DNA of 64,000 nt. Origin: Bremia lactucae (lineage: Eukaryota > Oomycota > Peronosporomycetes > Peronosporales > Peronosporaceae). The DNA lies in contig NW_027152182.1 in assembly GCF_004359215.1 (NCBI RefSeq), forward strand, positions 24,273 through 88,272, written 5' to 3'. Under the pieces are notes generated by a model. The model was not told the DNA's origin, did no database searches, and was given only the letters and a program-made list of their open reading frames with translations. A program made the translations under genes and the position numbers. This document shows, piece by piece, positions 3,701 through 56,071 of the stretch (positions are counted from its first letter, which is position 1; each line of letters starts with the position of its first letter).

Positions 3701-4130
3701 GTGAAGGCGCTTGCGCCAAGAGAGGCGGTCGTGCCGCAGATTGCTGCATTCTCACCAGGATGTCCAGCTGGCCCTCTACGAGGTTGCTGACGTTCCAGCA
3801 CCAGAAGACGGTTCTAAACCGCATCAAAAGAGCCCTCAACCCGAGCAAGCTCTCACGACGATGTTGCACCTTGTGCTTTAAAGCATCAAAGGCCTCCGTC
3901 GAGATTTCCCATCCCTCTCTCGCGCTGCTTGATGCGCGAGAGAACCTTCAGTTTTACGTGGAAAACTTTTAAAGCGATGTCGTCGTAAGCGCCAAAACCA
4001 GTATCTGGTGAAGTGGCTGGGGTACCCCTCTTCTGAAAACTCTTGAGAGTTTGTCGTTCCTCTTCGGCAAGATTGCCCGTACGCCGTTGACGTTTTTGAG
4101 CGCCACGATTAGGGTCAACTCGCGTTAAAC
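754..4130 (+). pseudogene. pol: Ty3/Gypsy pol remnant of element B1 (RT, RNase H, integrase, chromodomain)
   Basis: Decayed polyprotein running through several frames. An RT N-terminus resembling LPPDRGVRHEIDL lies near 1000; the RT catalytic site reads LFDDVFVHS near 1485-1515; RNase H has HDKELLAVKYAL and YTDHASLRTA at 2070-2180; the integrase zinc region (CETCQRVKP, about 2690), a core Asp near 2780 and the QTEHVNR Glu helix near 3065 follow. A GPY/F-type HPVFYVGLLKPH sits at 3645-3690 and a chromodomain with YLVKWLGYPSSENSWE near 4000-4050. Stops and frameshifts separate these blocks, so it cannot make a full protein. Gag and protease are absent on its 5' side. It is the plus-oriented body of the element whose 3' LTR is at 5110-5548. 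Confidence 0.88.
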
Positions 4131-5021
4131 GACGCTTTGCACCAGTAAAAGTGGGATTAGGTGGATCGATAGCCTCAGTGTGGCTTTGATCCATGGTTGC
4201 ACGGTCAACCGAAGCACTGAAATATCGGCTAGACCTATCTTCGTTTGTGGCATAAATGTCGAACGTAGCTTGCCTTTGGCCTTAAGCTTGGCGAAATCGA
4301 ATTGAAGCTTCCGTTCAAACGAACATCAGCCACATCCGCAGACTCTCTAATATTCCAAATATTGCGGAGGCGGCGGGACCGATGGACCCAGCTCTCAAAT
4401 GAAACTTCGATTTCACTTCTTGTTTCATTGGGGAACAAAACGATCGGAAGTCCCCTCATTGAGGCCACCGAAGCCCCACGGGCTTTATCACGTAAATGCG
4501 TCAGATACTGACTTCGCGTCATTACCTTTGGCGTATGATATCATTCATGAAGACCGTCGCGAGTTGCGATCTCCTCCGGCGTCCTCGCAGTGAAACCGGA
4601 GATTTAGATGGCCAAGCTGTGACCAGCGATCTCTTTGAGACGTTTTTGCACTAAGTGGAGTGAAGCTGTATTCACTATGAGCTTTAGCTTTTGCTATCTC
4701 TGCAGCTCGACGACGAGCTTGTTCCTCAAGAGGATTGCCCATTTTTGCTCTTCATCGAGCGGATTCGTGATAATGTTGTGCTCAGGGCCATGTGTGTCCT
4801 GCTCAATGCAGTTAAGATATCAGCGGCACCACGTTCTGGGAACGGATTCGGGGCCCGCCGACGTTCATCGGGAGGAGAAGGTGTATAAGAGCGACGCTCT
4901 TGTTCCTCATCTCTAATGGAGTGTGACTTTCAAAGTCCACCATTCCCTTATCGTCGACAAAGGTGCTAAGAGTCTGTGACTCACGCTTGATTGTCATGGG
5001 ACAAAGGAAAGAAAAACACAA
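3886..5021 (-). pseudogene. Antisense ORF of element B1, overlapping the chromodomain
   Basis: Minus-strand frames between the B1 LTR and the end of pol, read towards pol. Segments around 5021-4812, 4742-4545, 4522-4235 and 4194-3886 can be joined only by assuming frameshifts. The same protein is readable on the plus strand at 9720-10560, with shared pieces such as SQYLTxLxDxARGASV and the RLRxIWxIRES stretch, so the translated sequence is conserved between two independent copies. Its function is unknown. The position (convergent with pol, adjacent to the 3' LTR) matches antisense ORFs in the D, E and F families. The part below 4130 lies opposite the chromodomain and could be partly a shadow of it. 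Confidence 0.6.
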
Positions 5022-5097
5022 TCAAATGTTTAGCTGTTTAGGTTCCGACCTTAAAAGAGGAAATAAAGTGAATGTTGTCACTCGGTGTCAACAGTCT

Positions 5098-9134: not shown

Positions 9135-9139
9135 ATTAA

Positions 9140-9639: not shown

Positions 9640-10600
9640 TTGACATCTAGTGACAACATTTGCTTCATTTCCTCTTTGAGGTTGGAATATAATCAGCTAC
9701 CGTCTGGTTGTGTTTTGCATTCCTTGTCTGGTGACAATATGCGTGACTCACAGACTTTTAGCACCTTTCTCAACGATGAGATGATGGTGGACTATGAAAG
9801 CTACACTCCATAGGAGGATGAGGAAATGGAGCGCGGCTTTAACACGCCTCGTCGTGTGGACGACCTCGGCGGGCCCCAAATCCGTTCCTAGAACGTGCTG
9901 CCGCGGATGTGTTAGCTGCATGTCACAGGACATCGGACCCTGAGTCCAACATAATTACGAACCCGCTCGATGAAGAGCAAGAGCAGGCAATCTTCATGGA
10001 GGAACCACTCGTCATCAAGATGCAGACCTTGCAAAAGCAGAGCTCACAGTGAATATCGATTCACTCTACTTATGTGAGAAAGAGCGCCTCAAAGCGATTT
10101 CGGGTCGCAGCTTGACCATCTGGACCTCCTGATACAAGGCGAGGACGCCGGAGGAGCCCGCTGCTCTCGACGCTCTTCATGAGCGATACCTTACGCCCAA
10201 GGCAATGACGCGAGGTCAGTATTTGACGCGTTTGTGTGATCCGGCCCGTGGGGCTTCGGTGACCTCAATGAGGGAACTGCCAATCGTTCGGTTTCCAAAC
10301 GAGTCAAAAAGCAAAAATGGCGCTTCGTTTTGAGAATTGGGTTCATCGGGCTCGCCGCCTCCGCGACATCTGGTCGATAAGGGAGTCTGTCGATGTGGCT
10401 GATGTTCGTTTGGAACGGAAGCTTCGCTTCGATTTCGCCAAGCTTAAGGCCAAAGGCCAGTAACGTTCGGCGTTTATGCCTCAAAACATAAATAGGCCTA
10501 GCCAACACCTCAGTGCATCAGTTGCCCGCGCAACCATGAATCGAAGCCGCACTGATCTGAAAATCCATATATTCCCACTTCGATTGGTGGGCCGTTTGAC
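9640..10600 (+). pseudogene. Antisense ORF of element B2
   Basis: Plus-strand frames starting beside LTR B2 and reading towards the minus-strand pol end. The N-terminal piece has SQTFSTFLNDEMMVDYESYTP-like sequence (about 9750-9810), followed by an acidic/basic middle and SQYLTRLCDPARGASV (near 10,215-10,260). It matches the minus-strand ORF at 3886-5021 piece by piece, with different stops and frameshifts in each copy. No known domain is recognised. Because two copies keep the same translated blocks, it was probably once a real gene. Confidence 0.6.
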
Positions 10601-11103: not shown

Positions 11104-11200
11104 ATCAACACTCCCTTAAACGACATCACTCTGACTGTCATTGGATAGCGTGGTCACTATAAGACTACTTAATTAAAAACCATGTTGATTGGTAAGAACC

Positions 11201-11846: not shown

Positions 11847-12304
11847 TGATAAAACGGGGTGTATCGTTACATGAAACTAACACTTAAAGGTTGTTAATTA
11901 ATATATTATCTAAAAGGTAGATAATATTGGGAAGATATTACTTAAAATAGTAATGATCAGAGTCCTTATCCATAAATAGGTATAGGGCATTGTATCTATT
12001 TATTCCGCAGACTAATCAGCAGTAGATGTAAACAAAAGAGGAAATACAGATAAGATAGGATAAGAATTCAATTGCATGTTTAGTATTAGTCTATAATTAA
12101 GTTAGCATTTACAAGATAGATAGAAGAGATACTTAATTATATTAATACAGTTTTCATTTTACCCTTTTTAAGCTAGTTACCTTAAAGAGAAGTCTTCCTC
12201 TGCACTTACTAGTGTACGTGAAATAACGTAAGGCACCACTCGCAACTGAAGCAGTGCGAAGTGGACTTGTACTGAAGCAGTACAAGTTGTAGTGCCCCGT
12301 TACA
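11847..12304 (+). repeat. 3' LTR of a D-family element, plus orientation
   Basis: Begins TGATAAAACGGGGTGTATCG (degenerate TGTAACGGGG) and ends GCCCCGTTACA. It aligns over its length with the solo LTR 24,464-24,913 and, inverted, with 36896-37335 and 43020-43449. It lies between the two exact 286-bp repeats. Confidence 0.85.
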
Positions 12305-12312
12305 CCAGAACT

Positions 12313-14150
12313 ATCATTTTTAATTCTATCGCATGGTTTGCAAGTCCATGCGGTGTGCGAATAATGCGGCGCCTTCGGCTGCGGTTCATGCAGCCGCGGG
12401 TGACGCATTATTGTCTCTTGTGGCAGAAGTTCCGTCTGCCGTAGTATCGTCTTCTCCCGCAACTCTAAATGTTGCGGGTGCACGTGGTGAGTCACCACGC
12501 GAATGCGACAAATCTTTGGAGGTCGACTATGAGTGCGACTCGGTCGAAATTTCGGACTCGGGAGAACAGAACAGATGCCTGATCATCGTCAGGCGGCTTA
12601 CGATGATCCTCTGAATGAGGGGGCTAAATCGGATGGATGTGCTTATAGCGTTCGCTGTTTTGCAATTTACCAGGGTATCTTATCATAGGTACTGATTTTC
12701 CATTAGAAGATTCTAAAAGCTCCTGTTTGAGCCAGAGTCAAGTGCTCAGCCAATAATAACAGCAGGCAAGCGAATCTGCATGTTACTATTGCTGCAAACT
12801 CTGGATTAGCCACTTTCTGATTTTTAAGCATGTTTGGTGCCGACGATGACGATGATTCCTCATCGCCAACACCGACTCCCGTGCCGTCACCAGTACTTAT
12901 TCATGTGCGTGGTGATGACGATGGCGTAAGCCATCGTAATAAAAGATCATGTGGTACGACTTCTTCAGTAATACCACTCAGGGTAGCGTAGACAATAAAA
13001 TGTATTGTCTTGCCTCTGAGAAAAAGCCGGGGCTTTTGCCCGAACGGCTAGTCAGTAGCTTCTCTGGAGAGACTACTCCTCACAATAAGTATCCCTTATT
13101 TATTGCGACAAAGCTATATGGTCTTGATCCCAGCCCGAAGAACGTTCGCGCTGAAGAAGATTTTATCTCGATGCTTTTCTTTAGCATCGATGGTATAGTG
13201 GCAACAACAAGCGTTGATGCAAGCCTGGAACGCGTTTATTCGCAATGTCAAAGACATTGGACGCGAAGCCTGACTTTAAATACTTAACACGATTCGCGTT
13301 AAGTTTGACAAACGAACTCCAACCGGTGCAAGGTATAAATTGCATCGGTCGACTCGTGAGGCAGGACTTCCGTGCCTCACGTGGGGTGATCCTTGTCCGT
13401 GATGTGTCGACAACACGAAATGAGTAAAAGAAGATGTTTACTCCCTTTCTTCGCCCTGGGGAAGGACTCGCATCTCTATCGAGATGCGCGATGCGATTGA
13501 CGTTTTTCAATCGATTTACACGCGCCAGAGGCGCGTGTTTTTCCGATGGATCAGAAGATCCATCTCGTCATACTGACGGAAGAGGTCCTCAACGTCAACA
13601 ACTGGCTGGGAACGAGGTTCCCAGCTGTCACGCGAAGGTAGATAAACGAGCCAGCGAATCAGATTACTCGTTTGCTGCCCCTTCATATCACGGTGGTTTA
13701 GAATACGTTTCGCATAGAAACGTTGACCACCGTGGGAATCCACCAATGGTTGTGGTGGAGGAGGAAAAATTAGATCGAACCGTGTGTCGGATCTAGAGTC
13801 GAAGATAGACAAACTCGATCGCTACCTCCATGTATCGGAGGAGAAACTTGAACACGAGCGCGATAAACGTCGCACGTTGGAGCAGACCTTTGCAAGCTCA
13901 CTATATCGAACGGTTGGAACCATTCGAAGAGTGCGTACTCATGTTGGAGTACGAACGGAAATATCACGCTCTTCGTGATGAGCTGCCATCAGCTCATCAC
14001 GGTTTCGAGGATCTTCGGACCCGACATGAGAATCTCCAGATTCAGCATGAGAATCTGGTTCGTGACCACAAGAATCTTTTAGGAATTCTTGAAAAGGGTG
14101 GTCAGATCCGTCCTCGGAAGGAACCGCGTACTGATGGTACGGGTGGAGCC
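12313..14150 (+). pseudogene. Antisense coiled-coil ORF of element D1
   Basis: Plus-strand gene of the D family, convergent with pol. In order: Ala-rich N-terminus from ATG 12,333; acidic segment; a middle part (12,949-13,287) sharing blocks with 37.9-38.2 kb; a Ser/His/Gly-rich part (13,434-13,796) lying opposite the chromodomain; and a coiled coil (SDLESKIDKLDRYLHVSEEKL, then YERKYHALRDELPSAHHGFE and HENLQIQHENLVRDH) to about 14,150. The frame changes several times, so this copy is broken. No enzyme motif is visible. Its amino-acid pattern recurs in D2, E1, E3 and, more distantly, F. Confidence 0.65.
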
Positions 14151-17018
14151 GACCAACGTACAAACGTTAGATGCGTTCGCATCCTACATAGTAATTCTAT
14201 TGTGTATACGTTGCCTCTGCGATGTAGTACACCGAATGGCCCAATGAACTTGGGTAGTAGCTTACTGCTACCGACATTAGTGACTACCCGATTAGGTTAA
14301 GTTTACCGTAGAGAGTAGTACTAGCTCATTAATTTTAAATGAATGAACATTTGCTGTTCCATGTTTGTTCGCGTTCCGTTTCTGACGGTCCACTGCGATA
14401 GCAATGGAATCCTGCACGAAACGGATTGCTGATTCTCGAGCCAGCAGAAATTCCTCTGCTGACTCATTTGTTTTGTCTCTTTCAGTGCGCTTTGTGCGCA
14501 CTGCCATGAGATCTTTCTCATCTTCGATATCGATTTCTTCGACATCGACATTGCTCGTGTTGTTGTTAACTTTGACGCGTGATGCGCTGAGCCAGAAGTG
14601 GTTTTGCTCGTGCGAGTCCACCTCCTTCCTTAAACTAGAGGATCCCTCTAATTGGGTGGGTATGCGAGGATGGCGTAAGCCACTAACGAAGAACGGTGTG
14701 TGCGTTGTAGGCGCATGCACCGAATTATTGATGGCGAATTCGACCATCGGTAAAAACTCGCTCCAATTCGGATACGATTGAACGTAACCTCGAAGTATCT
14801 CTTCGAGGGCGCGATTTACGCGTTCTGTTTGACCATTCGTTTCTGAGTGATCGGATGTTGACATAGGCAGCCGTGTTTTAAGAGATTGGAATACAAATTG
14901 CCAAACTCCGCCGTGAACCTTGGATCGCTATCCGAGACCAGTTCACGAGGTTAACCCTGGAGTTTAAATACCGTGTCGATAAAGACACGGGCATAACCCG
15001 CAGCCGTAATCGACTCTGGTACCGCAGCAAGATGTACCATCGTGCTGAATCTGTCGACGAAAACAAAGATTCCATTGTTTTTGTGGTCGTCTTCGGGATA
15101 TCCGAAGACGAAGTCCATAGATACGGACTGCCAACACTCTGCCGGACGTGGTAGAGGTTGGAGAGGTGCACGGGATGAAAGGCTAGGCTTCACCCGTTGA
15201 CATACCTCACAAGCACCAATGTACTTGCGCACGAACTGATACTAGCGGGGCCAGTTAAAGTCGCGACTTACTGTAAGATAAGTTGTTTCACGTCCACGAT
15301 GCCACTTGTTGGTGCATCGTGACACTCATACATGATGCGCAAGCGCAAATCATTGTGAGTTGGGACGTCGACACGTGTAGTGTCGCCGTCAACGGCTGTG
15401 TATCGATCGGATGACGATCGATATAAAGCCGGTGAATCTCTAAAAGATTTAACGGTTGTATATTAGATGATTCTTTAAACACAGAAGGTCCTTATCTTCT
15501 GCGTAGGTTTTACCTTTTGTCATCAAACAAGGTTGATGACGGAACACTTGAAATGAGTGTTGCAACGGTGCGATTATTTTCAATGATGGAATGTGCAGCC
15601 GGGTCGAAATCGGGTCGGCGTGATAACGCGTCAGGGACGACATTAAGTCGTCCTGGTTTATACTCCACGGAAAATTATACTCCGCGAAGAAGGATTGTCA
15701 CTCGCCATTCTTTGCGAGAGGTGTGGGGACGCATGGTCCGTATATACGATGAACGGTCTATGTCCGAGTAGATAGGCCCTGATTTAGCTATTGCATATTT
15801 CATGGCAAGAAGTTCCTTGTAATGCACTCGGTAATTGCGTTCAGCTGGTTGCAGCTGACGCGATTGGTAACAGACGACGTGCCGCGCCTTCTGTATCGTA
15901 TCGCATTAACGCACAGCCGATTGCGAAATCGCTGGCGTCACAGATCACATGGTATGGTCTGTCTTGATCTGCAATCGCCAAGATGGGCCATTGCATCAAG
16001 CTTTGCTCGATACTTTCAAAGGAACGCTGACAATCAGCGTTGTATAAACATTTCTCGTCTTTTCGTCGGCATAATTGCGTGAGTATTTGTGCAAGTACGC
16101 CGCTAGCCCAAGGATCTTCTTAAGTCCCTCGACATCGACTGGAACTGACCAGCCGGTAGTTGCCTTGATCTTTTCGGGTCAGGGCGCTCGTCGTGTTTTT
16201 CGACGATGCACCCAAGAAATATTTTTTCGCTTGCAGCGAATATACACTTCTTGAGATTTGCATACAACTTATGCTTCGCATAAGTGTAAGCAGCTGACGA
16301 ACGTGACTTTTATGAACTTCCACGTCCGTTTTTCCGTATAGGCGGGCTATGGACGAATACACCGTCGAAATAACTCGGTGCGAATTCTCGCACCGGTCTA
16401 AACAGATCCGTTACGCATCTGTTGAATGTTGCAAGGGCATTACTTAGCCCCTGTGGCATTACTAGCCATCCCAGAGCATCCCAGTGGGAGTGCTCACTGC
16501 TGTCTACGGGATGTCCCGTTCACGCATAAGAATCTGATAAAATCCATCCATCATATCCATTGACGAAAAGATGGTACTCTTAGATATACCACCTATGATT
16601 ACGTCTATTCTAGGTATCAGCGTTTGAGCCGGTACCGTTGCAGCATTCAGTTAATTGAATGCGTGTATAATCTGCCACCCTCCTGTGGCCTTTCGCACAT
16701 AGAAGGTCAGAGAGCTATGTGGGAAGGTTGACTCCCTTACATGGCCTGCTTTTAATCGATCGATAAAGAATTTAGTAATCGATAGTACTTGTTCTTGAGG
16801 CAGTGGCCATTGCTTCATGACACAGTACTTTGAGCCCGGTTGAGCTCGATCTCATGTCGAGTGCCTTTATCCTTAGGCAACTCGCATGGAACTGTTTCAG
16901 GGAATACATCACTGAGTTCCATCAAATCCTTGTATAAAGGATTTGTCTTAAGTGACTCCCAGGATTGAGTAGTATATCTCTCAATCCGAGTCTTCACATC
17001 GAGGACACTTTCGTCCAT
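13516..17018 (-). pseudogene. pol: Pol of element D1 (RT, RNase H, integrase, chromodomain), RT active site damaged
   Basis: Minus-strand Ty3/Gypsy chromovirus polyprotein. The RT start resembles LPKDKGTRHEIEL (about 16,880); the RT catalytic motif reads SYFDGVFVHS near 16,370-16,345, with Gly in place of the second Asp of YFDD. The integrase zinc region (CEVCQRVKP) and core (SMDFVFG, VDRFSTMVHLAAVP) lie at 15,232-14,951 and the QTERVNRALEE helix near 14,830; a Glu/Asp-rich insert (VDVEEIDIEDEKD) follows the core. GPY/F and a chromodomain (RFYAKRIL, SRDSWEPRSQ; 13,722-13,564) finish it. Several frameshifts are present. Confidence 0.9.
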
Positions 17019-31274: not shown

Positions 31275-32940
31275 ATGGCGACAAACAAGTCTGTGCGCGT
31301 GGCCCGTGAGGCCGCAAAGCTGGCAGCTGCACGGATTAGTGCAGCTGTTAGTATTGCAAATGTTTAAGTAGACGCTAATGCGTCGACTGTGTGGAATACG
31401 TAACCTCCTACCCCAATTGAAGGTGACTGAGATATGTCATCTGATAATATAATTGCAGGTGACGGTGACAAGTCACCTGCTACACCAATTGTAGGTGACT
31501 GGACCAAGTCACCGGCACCGCCCGACTCAGTGGCTACTGTAAATGCCGCCGGATCACCTAAGGACGAGTCCGTTAAACCTTTGGTTTCTAATGTGACAAC
31601 CTAAGAGGTGATGACGAGTTTGGTGGGGAGTCATCGGATGGTGACTTCGTGGGCGATGATCACTCTGGTGACTAAGTATACGTCACTAGAAACTAAGTGA
31701 TCTGTAGGGAAGAGTGTTACTGGTGGTGCTAGTTTGCATACGCCAGGAAAGGAGTGATTCTAGGGATTGCTTCAAGGGCCAAGTTAACGTTAACATGCGC
31801 CATCAAGAGAGGAATCGCAAAACGTTGCGGCTCGCTCCTGAAAATAGACATAGTTTCCCCTCGAAGAATAACCTAATTCGTTGGTCTGGTATGACAACGA
31901 TCGATATCACATTCCGTTATTTGACTCAGCCAGGCTTCACTGGTGAGAATGAGACGGAATTCTTTATCGGCATCGGTAGTACTCTTCTATGCGGGGGAAG
32001 GATGCAAACCTTTGCTCCAAGCTTGGACAGCCTTTGTGCTCAATATGCAAAACATAGGCCTGACAAGCTAAATGCTCTCCGTGAACGGTTCGAGAAACGG
32101 ACCGTAGTCGGTGCACACTATAAGCTACAACGTTTGTCTAGACAGGCAGGAATTCCTTGCCTTTCGTGGGGGGACTCATGTCAATGCTGTTTTAAAGGGG
32201 CAGGTCATGCCTCTAAAGAAGCATGTACCCCAAAGCTTGAGGTAGAGAGCAAAGAAATATTCCCTTAAAGATTCTCATTTGAGGACGCTCATCTAACAAG
32301 ATGCATCAAGGGATTGAGAACCTTCAATACTATTACGAGCGCGGGAAACGTTCGTTCTTGATGGACTCTCTGTCGAGGCGGATGTTCTCATCGTACTGCA
32401 AGACGAGACCCGTCCAACATCAGTTGGGAACGAGGTTCCTAACTATCATGCGAGGGTGGATACCCTCGCCAACGAACGAGATGACTCGTTCGAACCCCCT
32501 TTACCTCACGGCGGTTCAAGAAGCTTTCAACATGAAAATGCTTCTCATCACTCGAATTTGTCAACGGATGTGGAGGGGGGGGAATCGGGATCGACTCATT
32601 TGACGAGCCCGAATCAACATCGTGATTGGACCACTCCTCTTATTATCTAAAGGAGGATCTTGATCACGAGCGAGCCCATCGCAGCGAGTTAGCGGTGACT
32701 GTCGACAATGTGTTTCGTGACCATATGAAAAATTGTGCGCAGGTTGCGACTGAACAAATGGCGAACAAGAGGACATGTCAGTCCCTTCAAAACGAGCTGG
32801 TGACAGCTCGTCAGAAGATCTCTTCCTTGAAGGAAAGAGTGGATCGTCTGGTTCAAGAGAATCAGACTATGTTCCGAGACAACAAGGCTTTGGCTCGAAA
32901 CCATCAGGCTTTGGCGATGCCCTCGACCGTTCCGGTGTAA
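31275..32940 (+). pseudogene. Antisense coiled-coil ORF of element E1
   Basis: Starts at ATG 31,275 with VRVAREAAKLAAARISAAVS, the same start as in E3 (54,404). A stop follows after about 30 codons, and later parts are open at 31,714-32,268, 32,301-32,603 and 32,626-32,940. The last piece is a clear coiled coil of about 100 residues (KEDLDHERAHRSELAVTVDN, QSLQNELVTARQKISSLKER, VDRLVQENQTMFRDNKALAR) with regular hydrophobic spacing. A Glu/His/Gly-rich part before it corresponds to the DNA opposite the chromodomain in D copies. No enzyme motif. Direction is opposite to pol. Confidence 0.68.
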
Positions 32941-33505
32941 CCCGGAATTGGAAGAAGCCTCGTACCCATAGATACCCAACATAAAACGTAGGATGCGCGC
33001 ACGCATACCACGAGGCAGCGATGTAGAACACAAAACGGCCCAATATACCTGGGCAGTAATTTATCACTGCCTTCATCACGACATGTTTCAGAAGGTCAAC
33101 CGTAGACAGTACGACTGGGTTATTAGAATTAATTGATGGTATGTTGTCTTCCGTTTCTGTTGGTCCACCGCATCAGCGATGGACTCCTGTACAAGACGGA
33201 CCCATGCTTCTCAAGCCAAAAAAAATTACCTGCTATCTCTTTTTTTGTTTTCAGTGCGACCGGCTCGCACTGCGGTATTTAAATCTATTCGTTATTAAGA
33301 GTATTATCGTTCTCATTAATAATTTTCTTTTTGATGTTAAGTCTTTCAGCATCGTTATTAAAGTCAGTAATAACATTATTGTTATTACTGAGTTTGTCCA
33401 CCTCAATGTAAATTAAATCAACATTAGTATCTTTCGCATTGACCTTAGTGCTAATGCGTGATGAGCAAGAGCTAAACTTTTTTTTTGCTCGAGCGAGTCC
33501 TTGTA
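32941..33505 (-). pseudogene. Integrase C-terminal end of element E1
   Basis: Minus-strand remnant with a GPY/F-like AHPTFYVGYLW (about 32,990-32,960) and, upstream of it, the diverged tail of the integrase with the acidic insert seen in other D/E copies. It stops near 33,505, where the strand of the pol sequence switches to plus. The true chromodomain, if kept, lies opposite the antisense ORF at 32.4-32.6 kb. Confidence 0.6.
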
Positions 33506-34879
33506 TTCCCTAGATAGTTCCATGCGAGTTGCCTATGGATTAAGGCACTCGACATTAGATCGAGCTCAAACCGGGCTCGAAGTACTGTGTCAGTGAAGCA
33601 GTGGCCACTGCCACGTGAAGAAGTACTTGCGATCGATAAATTCTTTACCGGTCGCGTAAAAGCGGGCCATGAAAGGAGGTCAACCTCCCCACATAGCTCT
33701 CCAACCTTCTGTGTGCCGAAGGCGACAGGAGGGTGGCGGATAGTGCACGCATTTAATAAACTGAATGCTGCAACGGTACCGGCTCAAACGCCGATACCTA
33801 GAAAAGACGTAATCATAGATGGTATGTCTAAGAGTACCATCTTTCCGTCTATGGATCTGATGGATGAATTTTATCAGATCCTTATGCGTGAACAAGACAT
33901 CCCGTACACAGCAGTGAGCACTCCCAGTGGGATGCTTTGGAAAAAGCTATTAATGCCACAGGAGCTTAGTAACGCTCCTGCAACTTTCAACAGATGCGTA
34001 ACGAATCCGTTGAGTCCGGTGCAAAAATTCGCACCGAGTTATTTTGACGATTTTTTCGTCCATAGTCAGACAATTGACAGAAAGGCGGACGTGGAAGTTC
34101 ATAAAAATCACGTTCGTCAGATTTTTACATTTATGCAAAAGCACATGTTGCACGCAAATCTCGAGAAGTGCATATTCGCTGCAAGCGAAAAAACACTTCT
34201 TGGGTGCATCGTCGGTAAACACGGCGTGCGCCCTGATCCCGAAAAGATCAAGGCAATTACCGACTGGCCATTTCCAGTCGATGTCAAGGGACTTAGAAAG
34301 TTCCTTGGGCTAGCGGCGTACTTGCACAAGAACTCCCGCAATTATGTTGAGAAGGCAGATCATCTCTCTCGTCTCTTCAAAAAAGACGGAGAATGGTTAT
34401 GGCACGCTGATTGTCAGCGTTCCTTTGAAGATATCAAGCAAAGCTTGATGCAATCGCCTATCTTGGCGATTGCAGATCAAGACAGACCATTCCATGTGGT
34501 CTGTGACGCCAGCGATTTCGCAATCGGCTGTGCGTTAATGCAATACGATACAGATGGCGCGGAGCGCGTCGTCTGTTACCAATCGCGTCAGCTGCAACCA
34601 GCTGAACGCAATTACCCAGTGCATGACAAGGAACTCCTTGCCATGAAATATGCATTGGCTAAATTTAGGATCTACCTCCTAGGAGATAGATTGTACAACG
34701 TATATGCGGACCATGCGTCATTATGCACGGCCGTAAATAGCCCACACCACTCGCAAAGAATGGCGAGGTGTCTTTCCTTCTTCGCGGCGTATAATTTCTC
34801 CGTAGAATATAAACCAGGACGACTTGATGTCGTCGCTGATGCTGTTCGTCTTCGGGAAATCCGAAAACGAAGTCCATAG
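33506..34879 (+). pseudogene. pol: Inverted RT-RNase H block, uninterrupted 430-codon frame
   Basis: D-type pol segment on the plus strand between minus-strand integrase pieces. The RT part has KQWPLPREEVLAIDKFF, TPIPRKD, the catalytic SYFDDFFVHS (about 34,030-34,060), the FLGLAAYLHK thumb and then RNase H with CDASDFAIGCALMQYD, HDKELLAMKYAL, YADHASL and EYKPGRLDVVADAV. All expected RT and RNase H acidic residues are present and no stop interrupts 33,587-34,860. It lacks protease, integrase and a start of its own, so it is best seen as a recently moved fragment. Its last 20 codons are foreign (junction near 34,845). Confidence 0.85.
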
Positions 34880-35104
34880 ATACGGACTGCCAACATTCTG
34901 CCGAAGTGGGAGAGGTTAAAGAGGTACACGGCGGGGCTTCACCCGTTGACATACCTCGCAAGCACGAATGTACTTGCGCAAGAATTGATACTGGCATGGC
35001 CAGTAAATGTCGTGACTTGCTGTAAGATAAGTTGTCTCACGTCCACGATGTCCACTTGTTGGTCTTTGGGCACTCATACATGATGCGCAAGCGCGAATCA
35101 TTGT
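34850..35104 (-). pseudogene. Integrase zinc-binding fragment, D type
   Basis: Minus-strand piece with SGHRGRETTYLTAS, QYQFLRKYIRACEVCQRVKP and SMDFVFGFPEDE, i.e. the HHCC domain and the first core Asp of integrase. It matches D1 (15,232-15,080). It lies between the inverted RT block and a C-type gag, both unrelated junctions. Confidence 0.8.
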
Positions 35105-35109
35105 ACAAC

Positions 35110-36230
35110 TTTGAGCTTAGGGGTAGCTTCAGAGTCCGCATCATTAGGGCATTTCGACCCTACTGCACTTCTGCATTTCCCGACCCCTCAGTCGTTGATG
35201 CAGAACTCAGGCATCTCGCACGCAAGTTCTTGCCGTCGCCCTTTGGGTAGGGAGTCCTCTTGCTGGGCGTCTTCGCCCCAACAGGGACCCTGGCATAGCA
35301 AAGAGCCATCATATGGCCGCGCTTGCCCGCATTTTAAACAGACCACGTCTGCATTGCCCAACTTCAAGGGAGTGGCATCTGACCTCTCGGCCGACGGCTT
35401 ATACCAAGCTATCGCCGAGACACAGCTGTAGGATTGCTCCTCAACTAAGGCAATTTGGATTGCCTTTTCCATCGTCGATGGCACCTTTCTGAAAAGGACC
35501 TGTTGCGATGGGCCATGCCGTAGTTCGTTCAAAAACATGGGCACCTTAATGTGCTCCGGGATCTGACCTACAGTAATGGACGCCGACAGCGAGCGCATCT
35601 CTTGCACATACTCTTGCAGAGATCGCTTCGCCTGTCGCGGTCCAAAGAGGCGCGCCTGAAGCAACACTTCGTTGTTCGGCGGCTGGTACATGGCGCGAAT
35701 GTTTTTTTTTAAGATCGCCCATGTAGGGAACGCCTTTCTGTCCGCCATAAGCGCCGAGTAAGCCCACTCTGAGGCCTTACCACGCAGATGCGACATGGCG
35801 TACGACACCATCCGTGATGAGATGCGCGACACCGCATTGCTCCACAGCTAACAGCTTGTGAACATTCGTGTTCGCTGCAGTTCCATCCGAATGGGCCTCA
35901 GCTGATGCGGCCGGCAGAGAGCATCTTAACAGTCCTGATAAGAGCCTCGCTCCAAGCTTGCTCATGCCTCAGCTCATCCTGAGTCTGAGTGACGGACTCC
36001 GCCGCAGCATGGCTATGTGCCACGGACACGGCTCTTCGCTGTCCGAGCACGAATGTCTCAAACTTCTCCAACTGAGAAACATGTTGCTCAAAAGTTTGGC
36101 CAGGGCTTGTTCACCAAGTCCCTGCGCCAAGTGCCCTGCCACCTCCCGATGATTCTCGGAGAGGTGGGGAAACGAGCCCAATCGATGTTGAGGCTCATCC
36201 TCACGTACACACGCAGAGATGCGGGTCGTG
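35110..36230 (-). pseudogene. gag: Gag of element C3 with capsid domain
   Basis: Best preserved C-family gag of the window. The minus frame 35,832-35,188 (214 codons) has the Retrotrans_gag capsid core: SYAMSHLRGKASEWAYSAL, AILKKNIRAMYQPPNNE, ARLFGPRQAKRSLQEYVQEM, HIKVPMFLNELRHGPSQQVLF. The zinc knuckle follows but is shifted by one base (CLKCG, then out of frame). The Gln/Glu-rich N-terminal part is at 36,181-35,969. The protease and pol of this copy are absent; a D-type integrase piece follows instead. The LTR beside it is at 36,255. Confidence 0.85.
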
Positions 36231-36254
36231 GGAAGGATATCAAGCGCTACGAAG

Positions 36255-36803
36255 TGTAAGCGGCACGTCTTATTATGGTAACGCTCTACTTAGACACACA
36301 CCATAGCATAGCGAGGACGCGGTTAAACCGTCTTCTCTTGCGTGCAGTGAGGTAGTTGTGGTGGGCGCCTTAGAGACCTCACCCAACGCACTTAAAAGTG
36401 TCGTCACGGGAGCGGTGATCCGGCTCCTCGGATTATCGCTCCCGTGACGACACTTTTACCGCACTTACCAAGTTGGAAGCAGCTTTCAGAATGACATAAA
36501 TCTAATCGTATTAAATTTATGTACCTATTTTTACCAATCAGAAATGTCATCGGTGTGGATAATTCTATTATGTATGGCTAGCTTATCTTTCTAGATACCT
36601 CGCGCAACGGATGACGCTAGCCGTCATCCCTCCTAATGTGAATGCACCTATGTGCATCACATACACATGAGCTGGTCACAAATGTGAATCACACCCGAGT
36701 GGTGGGTCTAATTACTTAATTTAAGTAATTGACCATCCCCTTAAGTACACCAAGTGTACTTAACGGGGATTGTGTAACATTCGGGCAACTTTAGCCCGTT
36801 ACA
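36255..36803 (-). repeat. 5' LTR of element C3 (family A) with inserted hairpin
   Basis: TGTAAGCGG to GCCCGTTACA, 549 bp. At 36,394-36,414 and 36,437-36,457 it carries a perfect 21-bp inverted repeat (starting AAAAGTGTCGTC) absent from the other A LTRs, which have only the first arm. Confidence 0.88.
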
Positions 36804-36895
36804 GAATTGGTCAGAGAATTCTCAAGCGCCAGGAATTAACGCTGAGTACTTTATCTAGGAGGCGGAATACAAGAGATGTTTGATATGAGCAAAGT

Positions 36896-37335
36896 TGTAA
36901 CGGGGCACTGCTGACTTGTACTGCTTCAGTACAGGTCCACTTCGCTCTGCCTCAGTGGGAGTGGTGCCTCACGTCACTTCACCAACACTTGTACGTGGAG
37001 AGGAAGACTCTCTTTAAAACACTTGATATAAAAGGGTTAAAGATTACTGTATTAAATATAATTAAGTTCTTCTCGTTTTATATCTATTTATGCTAACTTG
37101 TTTATATACTAATAATAAATATGTAATAAAAGTCTTATCTGTCACTCTCTTTGCGCGCGTCCAGCGCTGACTGTACCGCGGAGCAAGTAAATACAATGGC
37201 CTAAATCTACCAATGGATAAACTTTCCGAATATTACTTTGTAAAGTAATATTTCTTAATATTCTCTACCTTTTAGATAATATATTGATTAACAACCTTTA
37301 AGTGTTAATTTCATGTAGCGATGCACCCAGTTACA
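36896..37335 (-). repeat. 3' LTR of element D2 (family D)
   Basis: TGTAACGGGG to CCCAGTTACA, 440 bp. It pairs with 43,020-43,449 in the same orientation. The pyrimidine-rich TTCTCCTTAAAAAG after it is the complement of the polypurine tract. The 92 bases between this LTR and the LTR of C3 show nothing. Confidence 0.88.
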
Positions 37336-37463
37336 TCACTTCTCCTTAAAAAGACAATCACTCTGACTGTCACCGAATAGAGTGGTCACTATAAGAACAC
37401 TTATAAAAACGATGTTGATTGGTCAGGACATCATTTTCAATTCTATCGCAAGGTTAAAAGTCC

Positions 37464-38980
37464 ATGCGGTGTGCGAATAGTGCGGAGCCTTAGGCTGCAG
37501 TTCATGCAGCCGCGAGTGACGCATTATTGTCTCTTGCGACAGACCTCCCCCACTCTAAATGCTGTGCGTGCACGTAGTGGGTAACCACGCGAATGCGACC
37601 CCTCTTTGGAGGTTGAATACAAATGCAAGTCGGACGAATCGGCCGACTCGGAGAGAACAGAACAGCCTTCAAATGAGGGGCTAAAATCGGATAGATGTGC
37701 TATTTTTTAGCATTCGCAATAGCATATTCAGTTTCGACGATGAGAATGATTCCTCATCGCCAGCACCGTCTCTCGTGTCGTCACCCGCACATATTTCTGT
37801 TCGTGGTGATGACGTAAGCCATCGTAATAAAAGTTCTTGGGGTACCCCCGCTACAGTGGGTACCACTCAGCGGAGCGTATACAATAAAATGTCTCGTCTT
37901 GCCCTGAGAAGAAGCCTTGGCTTTTGCCCAAACGGCTACTCAATAGCTTGTCTGGAGAGACAACTCCTCAGGATAAATATCCTAATTTATTGCGACAAAG
38001 CTACATGCCTTGATCCCGTGCGAAGAACTTTCGCGCTGAGAAAGATTTTCATTTCGATGCTTTTCTTAAGCATCGATGGTACAGTGGCAACAACAAACGA
38101 GATAAAATCTCGTTGATGCAAGCCTGGACGCGTATATTCGCAATGTCAAAGACATTGGACGCGAAGCCTGGCTTCAAAGCCTTAACGCGATTCGCGTTAA
38201 GTTTGAGAAATGAACTCTAACCGGTTCAAGGTTTAAATTGCATCGGTTGTCACGTGAGGCAGGACTTCCATACCTCACGTGGGGTGATCCATAATCGTGT
38301 TATGTTGACAAACGAAACGAGTAAAAGGGGATGTCTTTCCCTTTTCTTCGCCCTGGGGAAGGGCTCGCATCTCTATCGAGATGCACGATGCGAATGACGT
38401 TTTGCAATCGATTTACAAGCTCCAGGGGCGCGTTTTTTTGGATGGGTCAGAAGGTCCATTGGATGGGTCTCGTCATACAGACGGACGAGGCCCTCAATAT
38501 CAACAACCAGCTGGAAACGAGGCTCTCAGCTATCATGTGAAGGTGGATAACCGCGCCACCGAACAAGATAACTCGTTCGCTGCCCCTTCACATCACGGTG
38601 GTTTTGAGTACGTTTCACAAGGAAAGGCTGACCACTGTGGGAATCCACCAAAGGTTGTGGCAGAGAAGGAAAATTTAGATCCGACCCATGTGTCGAATCT
38701 AGGGTCGACGATCGACCGCTACCTCCAAAAGTTGGAAGATGGACTTGATCACGAGCGCGGTAAGCGTCGCTCGTTGGAGCAGACGGTGAAGGCTCGCTAT
38801 AGAGATTTGTTGGAAGACCTTTCGAAGAGTCCGTACTCCATGTTGGAGTACGAACGGAAATATCTCGCTCTTCGTGATAAGCTTTATTCTGCACATCGCG
38901 GTTTCGAGGATCTTCGGACCTGGCATGAGAAACTACAGATTCAACAAAAAAATTTGGTCGTGACCACAAGAATATTTTAG
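37464..38980 (+). pseudogene. Antisense coiled-coil ORF of element D2
   Basis: From ATG 37,464, parallel to the D1 copy. The N-terminal part is frameshifted; the last 199 codons (38,381-38,980) are uninterrupted. This stretch contains the Ser/His/Gly-rich part lying opposite the chromodomain, then a coiled coil: STIDRYLQKLEDGLDHERGK, RSLEQTV, YERKYLALRDKL, RTWHEKLQIQQKNL. The minus strand is open across 38,526-38,969 as well, where it reads the chromodomain and its linker, so both strands look coding over 444 bp. Function is unknown; capsid-like or regulatory roles are guesses. Confidence 0.72.
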
Positions 38981-40804
38981 GGATTATTGAAAAGGGTGGT
39001 CAGATCTGTCCTCGAAAGAAACCGCGTACTGATGGTACGGGCGGAGCCGACCAACGTAAACGCAGAATGAGTTCGCATCCTACGTGGCAATCTTATTGTG
39101 TACGCATTGCCTCTGCGATGCAGTACACGGAAAGACTCAATGAACTTGGGTAGTAGCTTACTACTACCCACATTAGTGACCACACGCTTAGGTAAGTTTA
39201 CCGTAGACAGTAGTACTAGATTATTAATTTTAAACGAAAGAACATTTGCTCTTCCAATGTTTGTCTGCGTTCCGTTGCTGACGTTCACTGCGTTAGCAAT
39301 GATATCCTGCACGAAAAGAACTACTGATTCTCGACCCAGCAAAAACCCTTCTGCTGACTCATTTGTTTTGTCTTTCCCAGTGCGCTTTGTGTGCAATGCC
39401 CTAAGGGCTTTCTTATCTTCGAAGTCGATTTCTTTGACATCGACATCATTCGCGTCGTTAGCAACTACAACGCGTGATGAGCATGAGCCAGAAATAGCTT
39501 TGCTCGTGCGAGTCCCCCCTTAAACGAAAGGAACCCTCTAATTGGGTGGGTATGCGTGGATGGCGTAAGCCATTCGCGAAGCACAGTGTATGCGTTGTAG
39601 ACGCATGCACCGAATTATTGATGGCGAATTCGACCATCGGTATAACCTCGGTCCAATTCGGAAACAATCAGGCGTAACTTCAAAGTATTTTTTCGAGGAC
39701 GCATTTACGCGTTGCATCTGACCATCTGTAGCTGGATTATCAGAAGTTGACATTGTCAGCCGTGTTCCGAGAGATCGGGTTGCCAAAACCCCGCCGTAAA
39801 CCGTGGAGTTTGAATACCTTGTCGATTTTAAGACACGGGCACACTCCGGAGCCGTGATCGACTTTGGTACTGCAACTAGATGTTCCATCGTGCTGAATCT
39901 GTCTACAAAAACAAGAATTCAATTGTTTTTGTGATCGTCTTCGGGAAACCCGTAGACGAAGTCCATGAATACGGACTGCCAACATTCTGCGAGAAGTGGT
40001 AGAGGTTGGATAGGGGCACGGGATGAAGAGCTAGACTTCACCCGTTGACATACCTTTAAGAACGAATGTACTTCCGCACGAACTGATAGGCGGGGCCAGT
40101 AAATGTTACGACTTACTGTAAGATAAGTTTTCTCACGTCCACGATGCCCACTTGTTGGTGCATCGTGACACTCATACATGATGCGCAAGCGCAAACCATT
40201 GTGGGTTGGAACGACGACACGTAGAGTGTCGCCGGCAACGGCTGCGTAGTACAGTAAGCCATTGCGTGTTGTGTATCGATAGGATGACGATCGATATAAA
40301 ACCGTAAAACCTTAAAAGATTTATCAAATGGATTCATCAGATGATCCATTAAACGCAGAAGGTCCTTGGTCTCAACAGATTCGTTACGCATCTGTTGAAA
40401 GTTGCAGGGGCATTACTAAGCCCCGGTGGTATTACGAGCTATTTCCAGAGCATCCCACTGGGAGTGCTCACTGCTGTGTACGGGATGTCTTGTTCACGCA
40501 TAAGGATCTGATAAAAATCATCCATCAGATCCATAGACGGAAAGATGGTACTCTTAGACATACCATCTATGATTACGTCTTTTCTAGGTATCGGCGTTTG
40601 AGCCGGTACCGTTGCAGCATTCAGTTTATTAAATGCGTGCACTATCCGCCACCCTCCTGTCGCCTTTGGCATACAGAAGGTTGGAGAGCTATGTGGGGAG
40701 GTTGACTTCCTTTCATGGCCCGCTTTTACTCGATCGGTAAAGAATTTATCGATCGCAAGTACTTGTTTACGAGGCGGTGGCCACTGCTTCATGACACAGT
40801 ACAT
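38526..40804 (-). pseudogene. pol: Pol of element D2, RT catalytic part and most of RNase H deleted
   Basis: Minus-strand pol. The RT start is intact for about 120 codons (KQWPPPRKQVLAIDKFF to SGMLWK; 40,804-40,439), then LSNAPATFNRCVTN near 40,380-40,430 joins directly to sequence that in D1 lies after RNase H (DRHPIDTQ, 40,310-40,260). The YFDD palm and nearly all RNase H are gone. Integrase pieces (HHCC near 40,200-40,050, core near 39,985-39,740) and the acidic tail (39,396-38,977) are frameshifted. GPY/F, linker and chromodomain (SYLVRWRGYPPSHDS) end it. A non-autonomous element flanked by two LTRs. Confidence 0.85.
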
Positions 40805-40999
40805 CGAGCCCGGTTTGAGCTCGATGATATCAAGTGCCTTTATCGTTAGGCAACTCGCATGGAACTACTTCAGGGAATACATCCCTGAGTTCTATTTAAT
40901 TCTCGTATAGAGGATTTGTCTTAAGTGACTTTCAGGATTGAGTATCATTTCTCTAAATCCAAGTCTTCACATCGAGGACACTTTCGTTCATTGAAGAGC

Positions 41000-41640
41000 T
41001 GCTGAGATCCCGTTCGTTTTGTGCAATAGGTCGACTCTATTCTCGACCTAGGATCATCGGTTGCCCCTTTAAACAACCGGTATATTCCTTGAATGTCACC
41101 AACTAGGCGTACATTCATTTCTCAATCGCTGCTTGTGTATTAGCACAGCCGCCGGCAGCTGACTCCTCAGTGTGATTAGTAATCACACTGTGATCTGGTC
41201 CTGTCGTACTAACGACCGTACCACAAGTGAGGCCATCGCACTCACTCGTAGTACATCCACACGCTTGTGGACGCTCCAAGACGTTCATCAGATGGCCATC
41301 TGATGAACAAGTGGCAGGCATCTTTACGGATCGATGCTGCCAGCTGATCCTTGGCTCGTATTTTCTGAGCCAAGGTAAACCTAGGATGACATCAAATTTG
41401 TCATCCAAATCCAGTACGATGAAATCATCATCATACTGTAAATCTCTTAACGTGTAGTGAAATTTCACTACGCGTTTCATTACTGTTATCGATGCGCCTG
41501 TCGCTAGACGCACCGTCATCCTCGTTGGAGGGATGTCGCGCTCAACATATTTGAGCCTACGACCCTCTAGTGACTGGCGACGAATAAAGTTATTCGACGC
41601 TCCGCAGTCCACTAGAGCTCTAAGTTACAAATCATTTGTC
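41000..41640 (-). pseudogene. Aspartic protease and linker of element D2
   Basis: The open minus frame from 41,612 carries a retropepsin-like domain: LVDCGASNNFI (active-site Asp present; Cys in place of Ser/Thr), then RLATGASITVMKRVV and VILGLPWLRKYEPRISW. After the palindromic codons at 41,284-41,309 the Cys/His-rich linker begins. The frame breaks near 41,115. The segment includes the conserved perfect palindrome discussed separately. Confidence 0.85.
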
Positions 41641-44037: not shown

Positions 44038-44081
44038 TACTGCGCTGTGCACATTTAGTGTGATATCACACGGCGCCTGAC

Positions 44082-45416
44082 ATGCCACCTAAGAAGGGCA
44101 AAGCTAAAGGGTTGTCTGAAAAGACACCCACACAACCACGCACAAAGCGCACGCGCAGCGATAAAACGTCACCGTCACCTAGCGCCACAGTAACATCGCC
44201 GACAGCTGCTGCCGCTGCTGTTGCGCTGTTAGCTGAACTTAATGATCCATCCCACTTTCGCAGTGAGGATGTAGATCCGTCGCTCGTTGTTGACTACAAT
44301 GAGTTGTCACCGCTGCAATCACCTCATAGTAGTGATGAGTTCAGCGAGCTAATGGGGAAGGGTAATGGCGCTATTTTGCCCATCCAAACTTCACCCATTG
44401 CTCCTAACATGAAGACGCCCATCGTTGCGAGGGCAAACTTGCCTTTAGTCAACAATGTAGCTGTCTCGTCGTCTGCGCTAGCTAATGCAGCGACCATTCA
44501 TGAGAGCACTGCCCATAGAGGTGTAGCTGCTTCTCAGTTGGGTAAACTCCCCAACATCTGTCGTTCAAACATTCACACACAATAGGTCTGACGCAGAGCC
44601 TGAGTGTAAAGCTCCACCGACGGCACGTAAACGTGTCCAGTCGGTGTCACAAGCCAGTCGTATTGAACGCGGCTATATGACTGGAAACAGACCCCTTACG
44701 CCACCTCCATCCAAATGGCCTCGTTCGGACGAAACTAGGGCGTCGCTCCTAGAGCGTGCCATTAGAGACGCTCATAATTATTATGGCGTCTACAATTCAT
44801 GGAAGGCTTACGGAAGAATATTGGGCCGTATTTCCCCAATCCCGGTCGTGTCGCATTCGAATAAATCAACTGACCAATACGAAGCAGAATTCTTGCGCCG
44901 CTTTCAGCCACATTCCGATGTGGCGAAACAATGGTCGCAGCGAATTATTTTCGCTCGCTTGCTTGGAGAGAAATCACGAGCGGTACTGTACCCCCCCTGT
45001 TTCTTCTCATCACGCTGCTCCTGCTAGTCCATTCGGAACTAGCGGAGCGACAACTGGTGCATCTTCTCAAAGGCAGACACTAGGCCCGGTACATTAACTG
45101 TTTCCCAAGAGTCGAAACTCTTCGGGCATCCTCTCCATTGGACGAGGACCTGAAGCTTATGCTTCAAGGAGCGGTGGGCAAGCAACCTTATAACAAGGAA
45201 GCGTTGGGTCTTAGCAGCACCCACCAATGCAGGCAGCGCCCGATAGGAGTGGTAATTACACCCACCTATTCGCGGCAGCCTATCCTTCTTCCGTTCAGTT
45301 GCAGGCGCTGCTGAGCGACGTTAGACTCACGGTCGGCGTCACCATCGGTCTCCTTAGACGAGTAGGGTATGTGATCTCTTCTAATTCAACATACCATTAT
45401 AGACGATCCACGTAAA
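44082..45416 (+). pseudogene. Antisense ORF of element F
   Basis: Begins at ATG 44,082, 167 uninterrupted codons: a Lys/Arg-rich start (MPPKKGKAKGLSEK, a possible nuclear signal), a Ser/Thr/Ala-rich stretch, then VDPSLVVDYNELSPLQS and an acidic-Ser patch. After a frameshift, 44,644-45,027 reads SQASRIERGYMTGNRPLTPP and a helical region (AIRDAHNYYGVYNSWKAYGR, QYEAEFLRRF). Further frames up to 45,416 lie opposite the chromodomain. The SLxVDYxE-acidic motif is shared with the D ORF (SLEVDYECDS), suggesting common ancestry. It is convergent with pol. Confidence 0.68.
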
Positions 45417-54403: not shown

Positions 54404-56071
54404 ATGGTAACGAAACCCGTGCGCGTCACCTGTGAGGCAGCAAAACTGGCAGCTGTTTGGCTCAGTGCAGCTGTTAGCGTTGCAAATGTTTCAGTAGATG
54501 CTAATGCATCTACATGCGGGAAAAAGTCACCTGCTACTTCCATTGTAGGTGACTGGGCAGAGTCGGCGTCATCGCCCGACTCAGTGGCAACTGTTAAGGC
54601 CTCCGGATCAACCAGGGCCACGTTCGTTAAACCTACGGGTTCTAATGTGACCACGAAAGAGGTGATGACGAGGTTGTTTGACACTTCGTCAGACCCTTTT
54701 GGTGCGGAGTCATCTTTTGATGACTCCATGGACGACGATAACTCTTGTGACGTCAGTATGCATTATCAGGTACGAAGTGATCGTAAAATTCACTTCGGTA
54801 AGCTTGCTACTGGTGGTGCTAGTATGCATCACTAGGGACGGATTAATTCTAAGGATCACTCTGAGAGTAACGTTAGCGTTAACGTTAACGTTAAAGTTAA
54901 CACGAGTCAATGTGAGAGGGACCGCAATGTTTTGCGGTTTGCTCCCAAAACGAAGCCTTGATTATCCTCTAAGAGCAACCTAGCTCGTTGGCCTGGTAAG
55001 ACCAACGATTGGTACCAAATTCCGTTATTCGACTCGTCCAGGCTACAAGCTTGGTGAGAATAGATTTCAACATCGATGCCTTTTTCCGACAACGGTAGCA
55101 CACATGTAAGCAGGCAAAAAATATCACTTCTTTGTTCCAATGAGAAGCATTTGTACAGAATGTGCAAAGCATAGGCCACGAGGCCTGGCTTGACAAACTG
55201 GATGGTTCCGTAAACGGTTCGAAAAGCTGACCGTAGTCGGTGCACGCTACAAGCTGCACCGTTTGTCTAGAGAGGTAGGGTTACCTTGCCTCTCGTGGAG
55301 GCGCTTATGCCCATGGTAGGGTTACCTTGCCTCTCGTGGAGGCGCTCATGCCCATGCTGTTTTAAGGGGGTGCAGGTCATGCCCATAAGAAGCACACTCC
55401 CTAAAAGACCCTCATTGGAGGACGCTCATCTCTTGTGAGATGTGGAAAGGGATTTACGAGCCTCCAATCCTTCGAGCGCGGGAAGGGCTCGTTCTCTGAT
55501 GGACCCCCGTCGAGGAGGATGGGTCTCGTCGTACTGTCCTACGAGACCCGGTCCATCCATCATCAGCTCTTGAACCAGCCCACGGTGGTTCGGGAAGCAT
55601 TCAAAAAGGAAACGCTAATCACCACTCGAATCCGTCAACGGCTGTGGAGGAGGAGGGAAAAACGGTTTCGCTGCGTTCGCCGAACCCGAGTCAACATCGT
55701 AACTTGGATCTCACCCTCCATTTTTCAAGGGATGACATTGATCACGAGCGATACCGTCGTCGCGAGTTAGCGGTGACGGTTGATAATGCTTCTCGTAACC
55801 AGTTGAAAAATTGTGCGCAAGTTGCGAGTGATCAACTGGCGACGAACTGACATATCAGTCCCTTCAAAACGAGCTGGTGACAGCTCGTCAAAAGATCTCA
55901 TCCTGTGAGGGTGTAGTGGACGTCTGGTTCGTGGGAACCAGATTCCGTCCCGAGACTATCATGCTTTTGCTCGGAACCATCAAGATTGGTAGACGCCTTA
56001 GACCGTTCCGGGGTGATTCGGAATCGGAAGAAGACTCGTACCGATGGTACGGGCGGAGACGCCCGACATAA
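54404..56071 (+). pseudogene. Antisense coiled-coil ORF of element E3
   Basis: ATG at 54,404 begins VTKPVRVTCEAAKLAAVWLS AAVSVANVSVDANAS, aligned with the E1 start; 144 codons are open to 54,835 and end in an acidic stretch (SSFDDSMDDDNSCD). Later pieces at 54,678-54,983, 55,435-55,770 and 55,644-55,850 are in other frames. The coiled coil (RDDIDHERYRRRELAVTVDN, KNCAQVASDQLATN) matches E1. A 41-bp tandem duplication at 55,274-55,355 shifts the frame. It is convergent with the E3 pol. Confidence 0.68.

Follow-up and report, generated by a model that had tools for sequence, protein, structure and literature searches.

The window, by which we mean the whole 64,000-nucleotide stretch of Bremia lactucae DNA that was analysed, contains the remains of a gene lying antisense to pol in several Gypsy retrotransposon families. 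In the D2 copy, a stretch homologous to open copies of this gene extends over 37820-39060 (+). Within the interval 37464-38980 its sole long ORF is 38309..38977 (+; 223 amino acids, from six-frame lists and tblastn), position 38980 taking in the stop codon. This open C-terminal part covers the last of the pol-free region, the linker and the long coiled-coil helices. Upstream of 38309 the gene continues in other frames: tblastn with the N-terminus of genomic copy L022 and with the L020 protein places the N-terminal part, interrupted by frameshifts and stops, at 37420..38308 (+). The basic tail, also part of the gene, follows in the next frame (38959-39060, +). Domain matches on the opposite strand mark the 3' end of pol: the linker between integrase and chromodomain faces the antisense gene together with a portion of the chromodomain itself (PF00385; 38529..38999, -), and the SH3/GPY-F-like C-terminal domain of the integrase (SH3_Tf2-1, PF24626) lies at 38980..39519 (-). 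Both matches are barely above cut-off. Their strand bears out the antisense orientation that a first-pass annotation, made from the window sequence, had given to D2.

The same annotation described an ORF opposite pol at eight places. Judged against open antisense frames elsewhere in the same genome, homologous antisense-strand sequence is indeed present at all eight, but none retains an intact single ORF: every copy is decayed, and the six-frame lists show pieces split by stops and frameshifts. The D1 relic (12300..14166, +) was located by tblastn as an N-terminus (12300-12563) and a remainder (12932-14166). Homology and heptad score define E1 (31519..32892, +), with open pieces at 31708-32265 (186 amino acids) and 32626-32937 (104 amino acids, coiled coil), both on the + strand. 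The remaining relics were defined by homology: E3 (54572..56057, +), F (44067..45310, +), its homologue C2 (60210..61177, +), B2 (9694..10590, +) and B1 (4128..5036, -), where pol lies on the + strand. F keeps two open pieces on the + strand (44064-44582, 173 amino acids; 44527-45024, 166 amino acids) and faces a pol chromodomain match (45042..45320, -).

Several other features of the window were recorded. A 292-nucleotide stretch with a D-type antisense N-terminus occurs twice at 100% identity (11195-11486 and 12307-12598, 1112 nucleotides apart). E1 and D2 are spanned by a patchwork of broken elements (31708-38977 and beyond, about 35720-41600) that recurs nearly unchanged. About 5.8 kb of the window is matched at 99.4% by copies L010 and L011, and at no fewer than 10 places (window included) an identical E1 match and an identical D2 match are separated by exactly 6601 nucleotides, with an eleventh in which D2 is 98% identical. 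The E1 piece is protein-identical at at least 34 places among the matches listed. Either this patchwork was amplified recently as a composite, non-autonomous unit, or it is an assembly artefact. Another E-type relic, interrupted by five in-frame stops, shows the same score, identity and stop pattern at at least 28 places, so that broken copies seem to be multiplied too. Elsewhere in the window, a host-type gene piece encodes an FHA domain followed by a PP2C phosphatase domain (18522-20324, -), and a 704-amino-acid open frame (21026-23137, -) has no Pfam match at E up to 1.

Relatives were sought in the same genome (115.9 Mb, 220 contigs). The D window ORF gave 4652 first-look candidates, of which the best 150 were scored; with E, B and F/C as queries the candidates numbered 3828, 2401 and 3044. 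For the D query 151 matches were counted, 11 of them protein-identical (the window's own among them). Open antisense pieces reach 427 amino acids in D copy L020, 472 in L019 (where the frame is lost near the end) and 386 in L022. In the F-family copy L050 a 505-amino-acid piece is open up to the limit of the fetched stretch; two B copies have pieces of 284 and 306 amino acids and one E copy a piece of 341. Piecing together overlapping fragments of several D copies, we infer a protein of very roughly 550 amino acids, about half or more of it encoded outside pol. The gene starts near the 3' LTR, crosses the gap between pol and the LTR and then overlaps the 3' end of pol. In L022, the one copy measured, the LTRs (829-1270 and 9003-9444) are 88.6% identical and in-frame ATGs at 1347, 1389 and 1404 lie 77-134 nucleotides from the LTR edge. 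The pol stretches of the fetched copies include runs of N, which may be assembly gaps; the B. lactucae SF5 assembly is described as 115 Mb with 24 Mb of gaps and with 58.6% of its contig sequence made up of Gypsy elements (PMC6570648).

With thousands of candidate copies in one genome, selection can be measured directly, and as roughly half of the gene lies outside pol the test is a clean one. For the non-overlapping part of D we projected 41 rows (45 minus four near-duplicates) on the frame of L020. For the overlap 43 of 47 rows were used, those at least 98.5% identical to a kept row being removed. All these copies were drawn from the 150 matches that scored best with the antisense protein, and long open frames were part of the reason for picking L014-L028. 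Since this biases the set toward the antisense frame, measurements were repeated outside the search query and on rows unpicked for frame length.

In the non-overlapping part the antisense frame has 0.69 stops per 100 codons (41 rows), compared with 1.86-9.82 in the five other frames. Its dN/dS is 0.47 (codon-bootstrap 95% confidence interval 0.38-0.60), with 0.56 (0.42-0.73) for the N-terminal piece. In a pol-only control the pol frame gives 0.50 (0.39-0.64) and the continued antisense frame 1.07; the antisense protein is therefore kept about as strictly as pol. The value holds outside the search query (0.48; 0.39-0.60) and in the 20 rows unpicked for frame length (0.50; 0.38-0.65). Differences at antisense codon positions 1, 2 and 3 are 0.103, 0.103 and 0.143 in the non-overlapping part and 0.089, 0.090 and 0.126 in the overlap. 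Informative sites shift to pol position 3 in the pol-only control (p 0.035); their counts in the antisense stretches go in the same direction with p 0.06-0.11 each, which is non-significant singly.

Pairwise dN/dS comparisons are non-independent. A second test, which works by columns, sets shared variants (found in three or more rows) against singletons; the former stem mostly from the active lineage, the latter mostly arose after insertion, and variants in exactly two rows were left out. In the antisense frame omega is 0.42 for shared variants and 1.03 for singletons in the non-overlapping part (Fisher p 7.3e-5), 0.42 and 0.96 in the linker (p 0.0012), and 0.52 and 1.05 in the N-terminal piece (p 0.0067). 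Shared variants in the pol frame of the pol-only control give 0.33 (p 3.5e-5), and a non-coding control frame gives 1.06 and 1.14 for shared and singleton variants (p 0.9). The difference between the two classes indicates selection in the active lineage and decay after insertion. As the singletons are neutral, the signal is unlikely to stem from choosing copies by similarity to the antisense protein.

The other families were represented by small sets: five rows for F/C, five and five for B (two references) and seven for E. In the pol-free part, antisense omega is 0.55 (0.42-0.72) for F/C, 0.53 (0.42-0.67) and 0.51 (0.40-0.64) for B with the two references, and 0.54 (0.41-0.70) for E, the last from E rows only because one 'E' set mixed D and E rows and had uncertain overlap limits. 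The other frames give 0.85-1.19, the mirror frame excepted (0.55 in F, 0.69 and 0.66 in B, 0.53 in E). Stops are fewest in the antisense frame in every set: one in 1057 codons in F, 12 in 1294 and eight in 1236 in B, and 16 in 1111 in E. The mirror frame has 56 in F (of 1056 codons), 43 and 41 in B and 27 in E (of 1108), so that stops separate the two frames well in F and weakly in E. We also considered a gene on the mirror '-' frame (omega 0.53-0.69) and rejected it: it shares its third positions with the antisense gene, and stops occur in it at 2.4-6.2 per 100 codons, the contrast in E being small. Codons 241-341 of E have mixed frames, the reference copy L053 seeming to shift frame there. 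These small samples agree with D on constraint of the antisense frame.

The first-pass annotation had inferred a conserved accessory gene of oomycete chromoviruses. As an accessory gene of these Gypsy families it is upheld: in D by dN/dS, by the numbers of stops and by the shared-versus-singleton comparison, and in the small E, F/C and B samples by dN/dS and stops. It had also named stops at neutral rates, or a dN/dS near 1 once overlap is allowed for, as signs of a mere shadow of pol, and the results speak against a shadow. We are therefore highly confident that the antisense ORF is a selected protein-coding gene.

In the overlap the two frames are distinguishable, since antisense codon position 3 faces pol position 2. 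Stops per 100 codons in the 43 D rows are 0.27 in the antisense frame, 0.41 in pol and 1.88-7.35 in the others (an alternative pol density of 0.78 was set aside as it seems to include pol's own stop codon). Among the 37 copies covered over at least 80%, the antisense frame is free of stops in 21 and the pol frame in 17. We shuffled pol synonymously, 500 times each, in the 12 of 43 rows that are free of gaps and have pol open. Eight of these have no antisense stops, three have one and one has three, whereas the shuffles average 7.4-9.1; a count as low as that observed appeared in none of the 500 shuffles for 11 rows and in 0.4% for the twelfth.

The integrase-chromodomain linker of D behaves differently on its two strands: dN/dS is 0.49 (0.37-0.66) for the antisense frame and 1.15 (0.86-1.57) for pol, and shared variants in the pol frame give an omega of 1.32. 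Here constraint falls on the antisense protein while the residues of pol drift, which makes the pol linker look like a by-product whose one requirement is to stay open. Over the chromodomain the values are 0.65 for antisense (0.43-1.03, an interval that reaches 1) and 0.63 for pol (0.40-0.97), and the shared-versus-singleton difference is non-significant for both (p 0.089 and p 0.4). In the F overlap the antisense frame gives 0.85 (0.55-1.33) and the '-' frame, which is also open, 0.61 (0.39-0.98). Constraint of the antisense frame in the overlap is thus evident from D only, the F overlap giving no clear sign of it.

A layout common to the proteins within and between families had also been proposed, and this stands in part. 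D and E are homologous: E copy L053 matches D copy L020 by tblastn at E 6e-33, with 34% identity over 218 residues (37% in the alignment), and in the translated DNA comparison of the pol-free part the antisense frame is best, with 115 bits compared with 64 for the next. (An hhalign probability of 100% for D and E was left unused as the two profiles share rows, and tblastn was taken instead.) F and C2 are close (56-72% identical). F and B show a weak similarity that extends through 76 columns and scores 25.8, while the best of 100 column shuffles reached 18.8. Between the N-termini of D and F only a 13-column patch around DPSLxVDY is common (22.9 against 18.4, none of 100 shuffles), and their C-terminal score was reached by two of 100 shuffles. 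The central domains of D/E and F/B, on the other hand, have no detectable similarity: that of D and F does not exceed shuffles, 13 of 100 being as good, and 39 of 100 were as good for the D and B N-termini. Unshuffled comparisons of E with F, D with B and E with B showed no similarity.

At least two deeply diverged groups therefore appear, from these alignments, to occupy the same slot. They could be different genes captured on separate occasions, as the undetectable similarity of their central domains would suggest, rather than one diverged gene. We consider this unlikely, though it deserves serious attention: the D/E and F/B genes share an identical place and orientation, D and F are alike in charge layout, and the DPSLxVDY patch common to the two was equalled in none of 100 shuffles.

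Four features mark the proteins: a stretch of acidic residues, a central domain, a coiled coil at the C-terminus and a tail that is basic (B was seen in part). Net charge per 40 residues is +5 in D and +8 in F at the start, -4 to -6 in both over about residues 41-150, and again positive through the central domain and the tail. The basic start is missing from the B piece, which stops short of the overlap. The C-terminal heptad periodicity was reached by two, six and two of 300 shuffles in D, F and E. AlphaFold, run on the 223-residue D2 ORF without an alignment, predicts helices at 125-173 and 175-222 with pLDDT 68-80 at 131-210; with a mean pLDDT of 48.5 and values below 50 at residues 1-122, the model is of use for the C-terminal helices only. 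D and E have cysteines in common at the end of the central domain (L020 C160 and C170 are invariant in four sequences), which may bind metal. The profile search recommended in the first-pass annotation was run against Pfam up to E 10, and its matches, on the helical part of L020, are all far below cut-off. No bZIP family is among the Pfam matches of the antisense proteins (coiled coil only). A PDB sequence search with both alignments gave no matches, and the 52 and 50 pattern matches in IMG/VR include no relatives.

Taking the evidence together, we judge it probable that D2 is a decayed copy of a genuine accessory gene that lies in antisense orientation in the pol-to-LTR gap, overlaps the 3' end of pol tail-to-tail and was under selection, and whose product would be regulatory, expressed from a 3' LTR promoter. 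For the regulatory role taken by itself we would give roughly even odds. A promoter within or adjacent to the 3' LTR, pointing in the antisense direction, would drive the gene, and the position of the gene fits this. The product, with its acidic N-terminal stretch and basic ends, would be nuclear, would self-associate through the coiled coil and would regulate transcription or silencing of its own element, as HBZ does for HTLV-1. Convergent transcription across pol may itself damp the sense RNA. The nuclear and regulatory roles are our best guess from composition and a low-confidence model. Such a protein may exert control over the retrotransposons with which this genome is filled (58.6% of contig sequence is Gypsy; PMC6570648).

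The selected protein might instead serve as a structural or assembly factor, for example one associated with particles or tethering the integrase. The long coiled coil would suit this, no DNA-binding domain was recognised by Pfam, and the 2401-4652 first-look candidates per query would suit any protein that the element needs. Nevertheless, a separate gag domain exists (Retrotrans_gag, window 59561-60157), the sense RNA would be an easier source of a structural protein, and the acidic stretch and basic tail would seem to resemble those of regulatory proteins; we regard a structural role as rather doubtful. It is very improbable that the antisense RNA alone matters, as double-stranded RNA, silencing decoy or counter-transcript. 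Convergent transcription over pol could yield double-stranded RNA, and in Phytophthora infestans small RNAs of both orientations are reported to map to Gypsy elements (PMC3522703), but selection here tracks codon positions and keeps amino acids, which an RNA role would not do. As for an ORF held open by pol codon usage, part of it does face pol with both frames open, but stops, shuffles, dN/dS and the shared-versus-singleton comparison rule this out for practical purposes: about half of the gene lies outside pol and is equally constrained, pol synonymous shuffles give seven to nine stops against the zero to three observed, and in the linker pol is neutral where the antisense frame is constrained.

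On the reading that we prefer, a regulatory accessory gene, a broader proposal can be put forward tentatively, at slightly less than even confidence. Chromodomain Gypsy elements of stramenopiles would have evolved, independently of plants and deltaretroviruses, a fast-diverging antisense regulatory gene, running from the 3' LTR tail-to-tail with pol, and the long integrase-chromodomain linker of pol would be a neutral mirror of the antisense coiled-coil domain, the antisense gene having shaped the overlap. The D linker in any case provides a natural example of a convergent overlap in which one strand is constrained and the other is not.

Some Gypsy elements of plants carry antisense accessory genes, as do a few retroviruses, and it is often debated whether ORFs of this sort function. 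The kind of gene is thus already known from LTR elements. The lineage, the protein and the selected tail-to-tail overlap with pol were not met in the literature searched; within that literature, which has subscription papers and preprints outside it, no antisense gene of this type was found in oomycetes.

Among oomycete elements, Chronos is described as a group of Ty3/Gypsy elements from Peronosporales whose pol ends in a chromodomain; what defines the group is an additional RNase H of archaeal type, placed between RNase H and integrase (PMC5348765). The Bremia elements share the host group and the chromodomain at the end of pol. In the main text of that paper the words 'antisense' and 'opposite' occur zero times. 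In the pol of C2 (61194-62223, -), the only copy measured, about 355 nucleotides separate RT_RNaseH from Integrase_H2C2, a tight space for a second RNase H. A chromodomain following an integrase GPY/F-like module, a feature of chromoviruses, is present in D2 (PF24626, PF00385), and oomycete Chronos and Ectocarpus chromodomain elements have been reported as non-chromoviruses (PMC5348765, PMC12477816).

In setting, the closest counterparts seem to be the antisense genes of the plant Tat/Retand elements (Retand, Grande, RIRE2), which also lie between pol and the 3' LTR and are reported in nearly all recently active copies; their proteins have been proposed to be DNA-binding and regulatory, and that of Grande is reported to be nuclear (PMC11963269). 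Unlike these, the Bremia elements have a chromodomain (PF00385 in D2 and F pol) and are without a TRP28 match. TRP28 (PF04195) was sought in seven antisense sequences at E up to 10, although HMMER filters drop most matches above about 0.1, and in the whole genome, where its absence is weak evidence as control genomes likewise gave none. The Bremia gene also overlaps the 3' end of pol, whereas the main text of PMC11963269 contains no word that starts with 'overlap'. In place near the 3' LTR and antisense orientation, the Bremia gene, known from sequence alone, also resembles HIV-1 ASP and the antisense genes of deltaretroviruses, HBZ among them. HBZ combines an N-terminal activation domain with a C-terminal bZIP and is an antisense gene under 3' LTR control (PMC10186651). 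The Bremia proteins differ in having no bZIP match and in belonging to an oomycete genome. HBZ of HTLV-1 may nonetheless be the closest working analogue (PMC10186651), and the Bremia gene would add another, apparently separate lineage to the LTR elements with 3' antisense genes.
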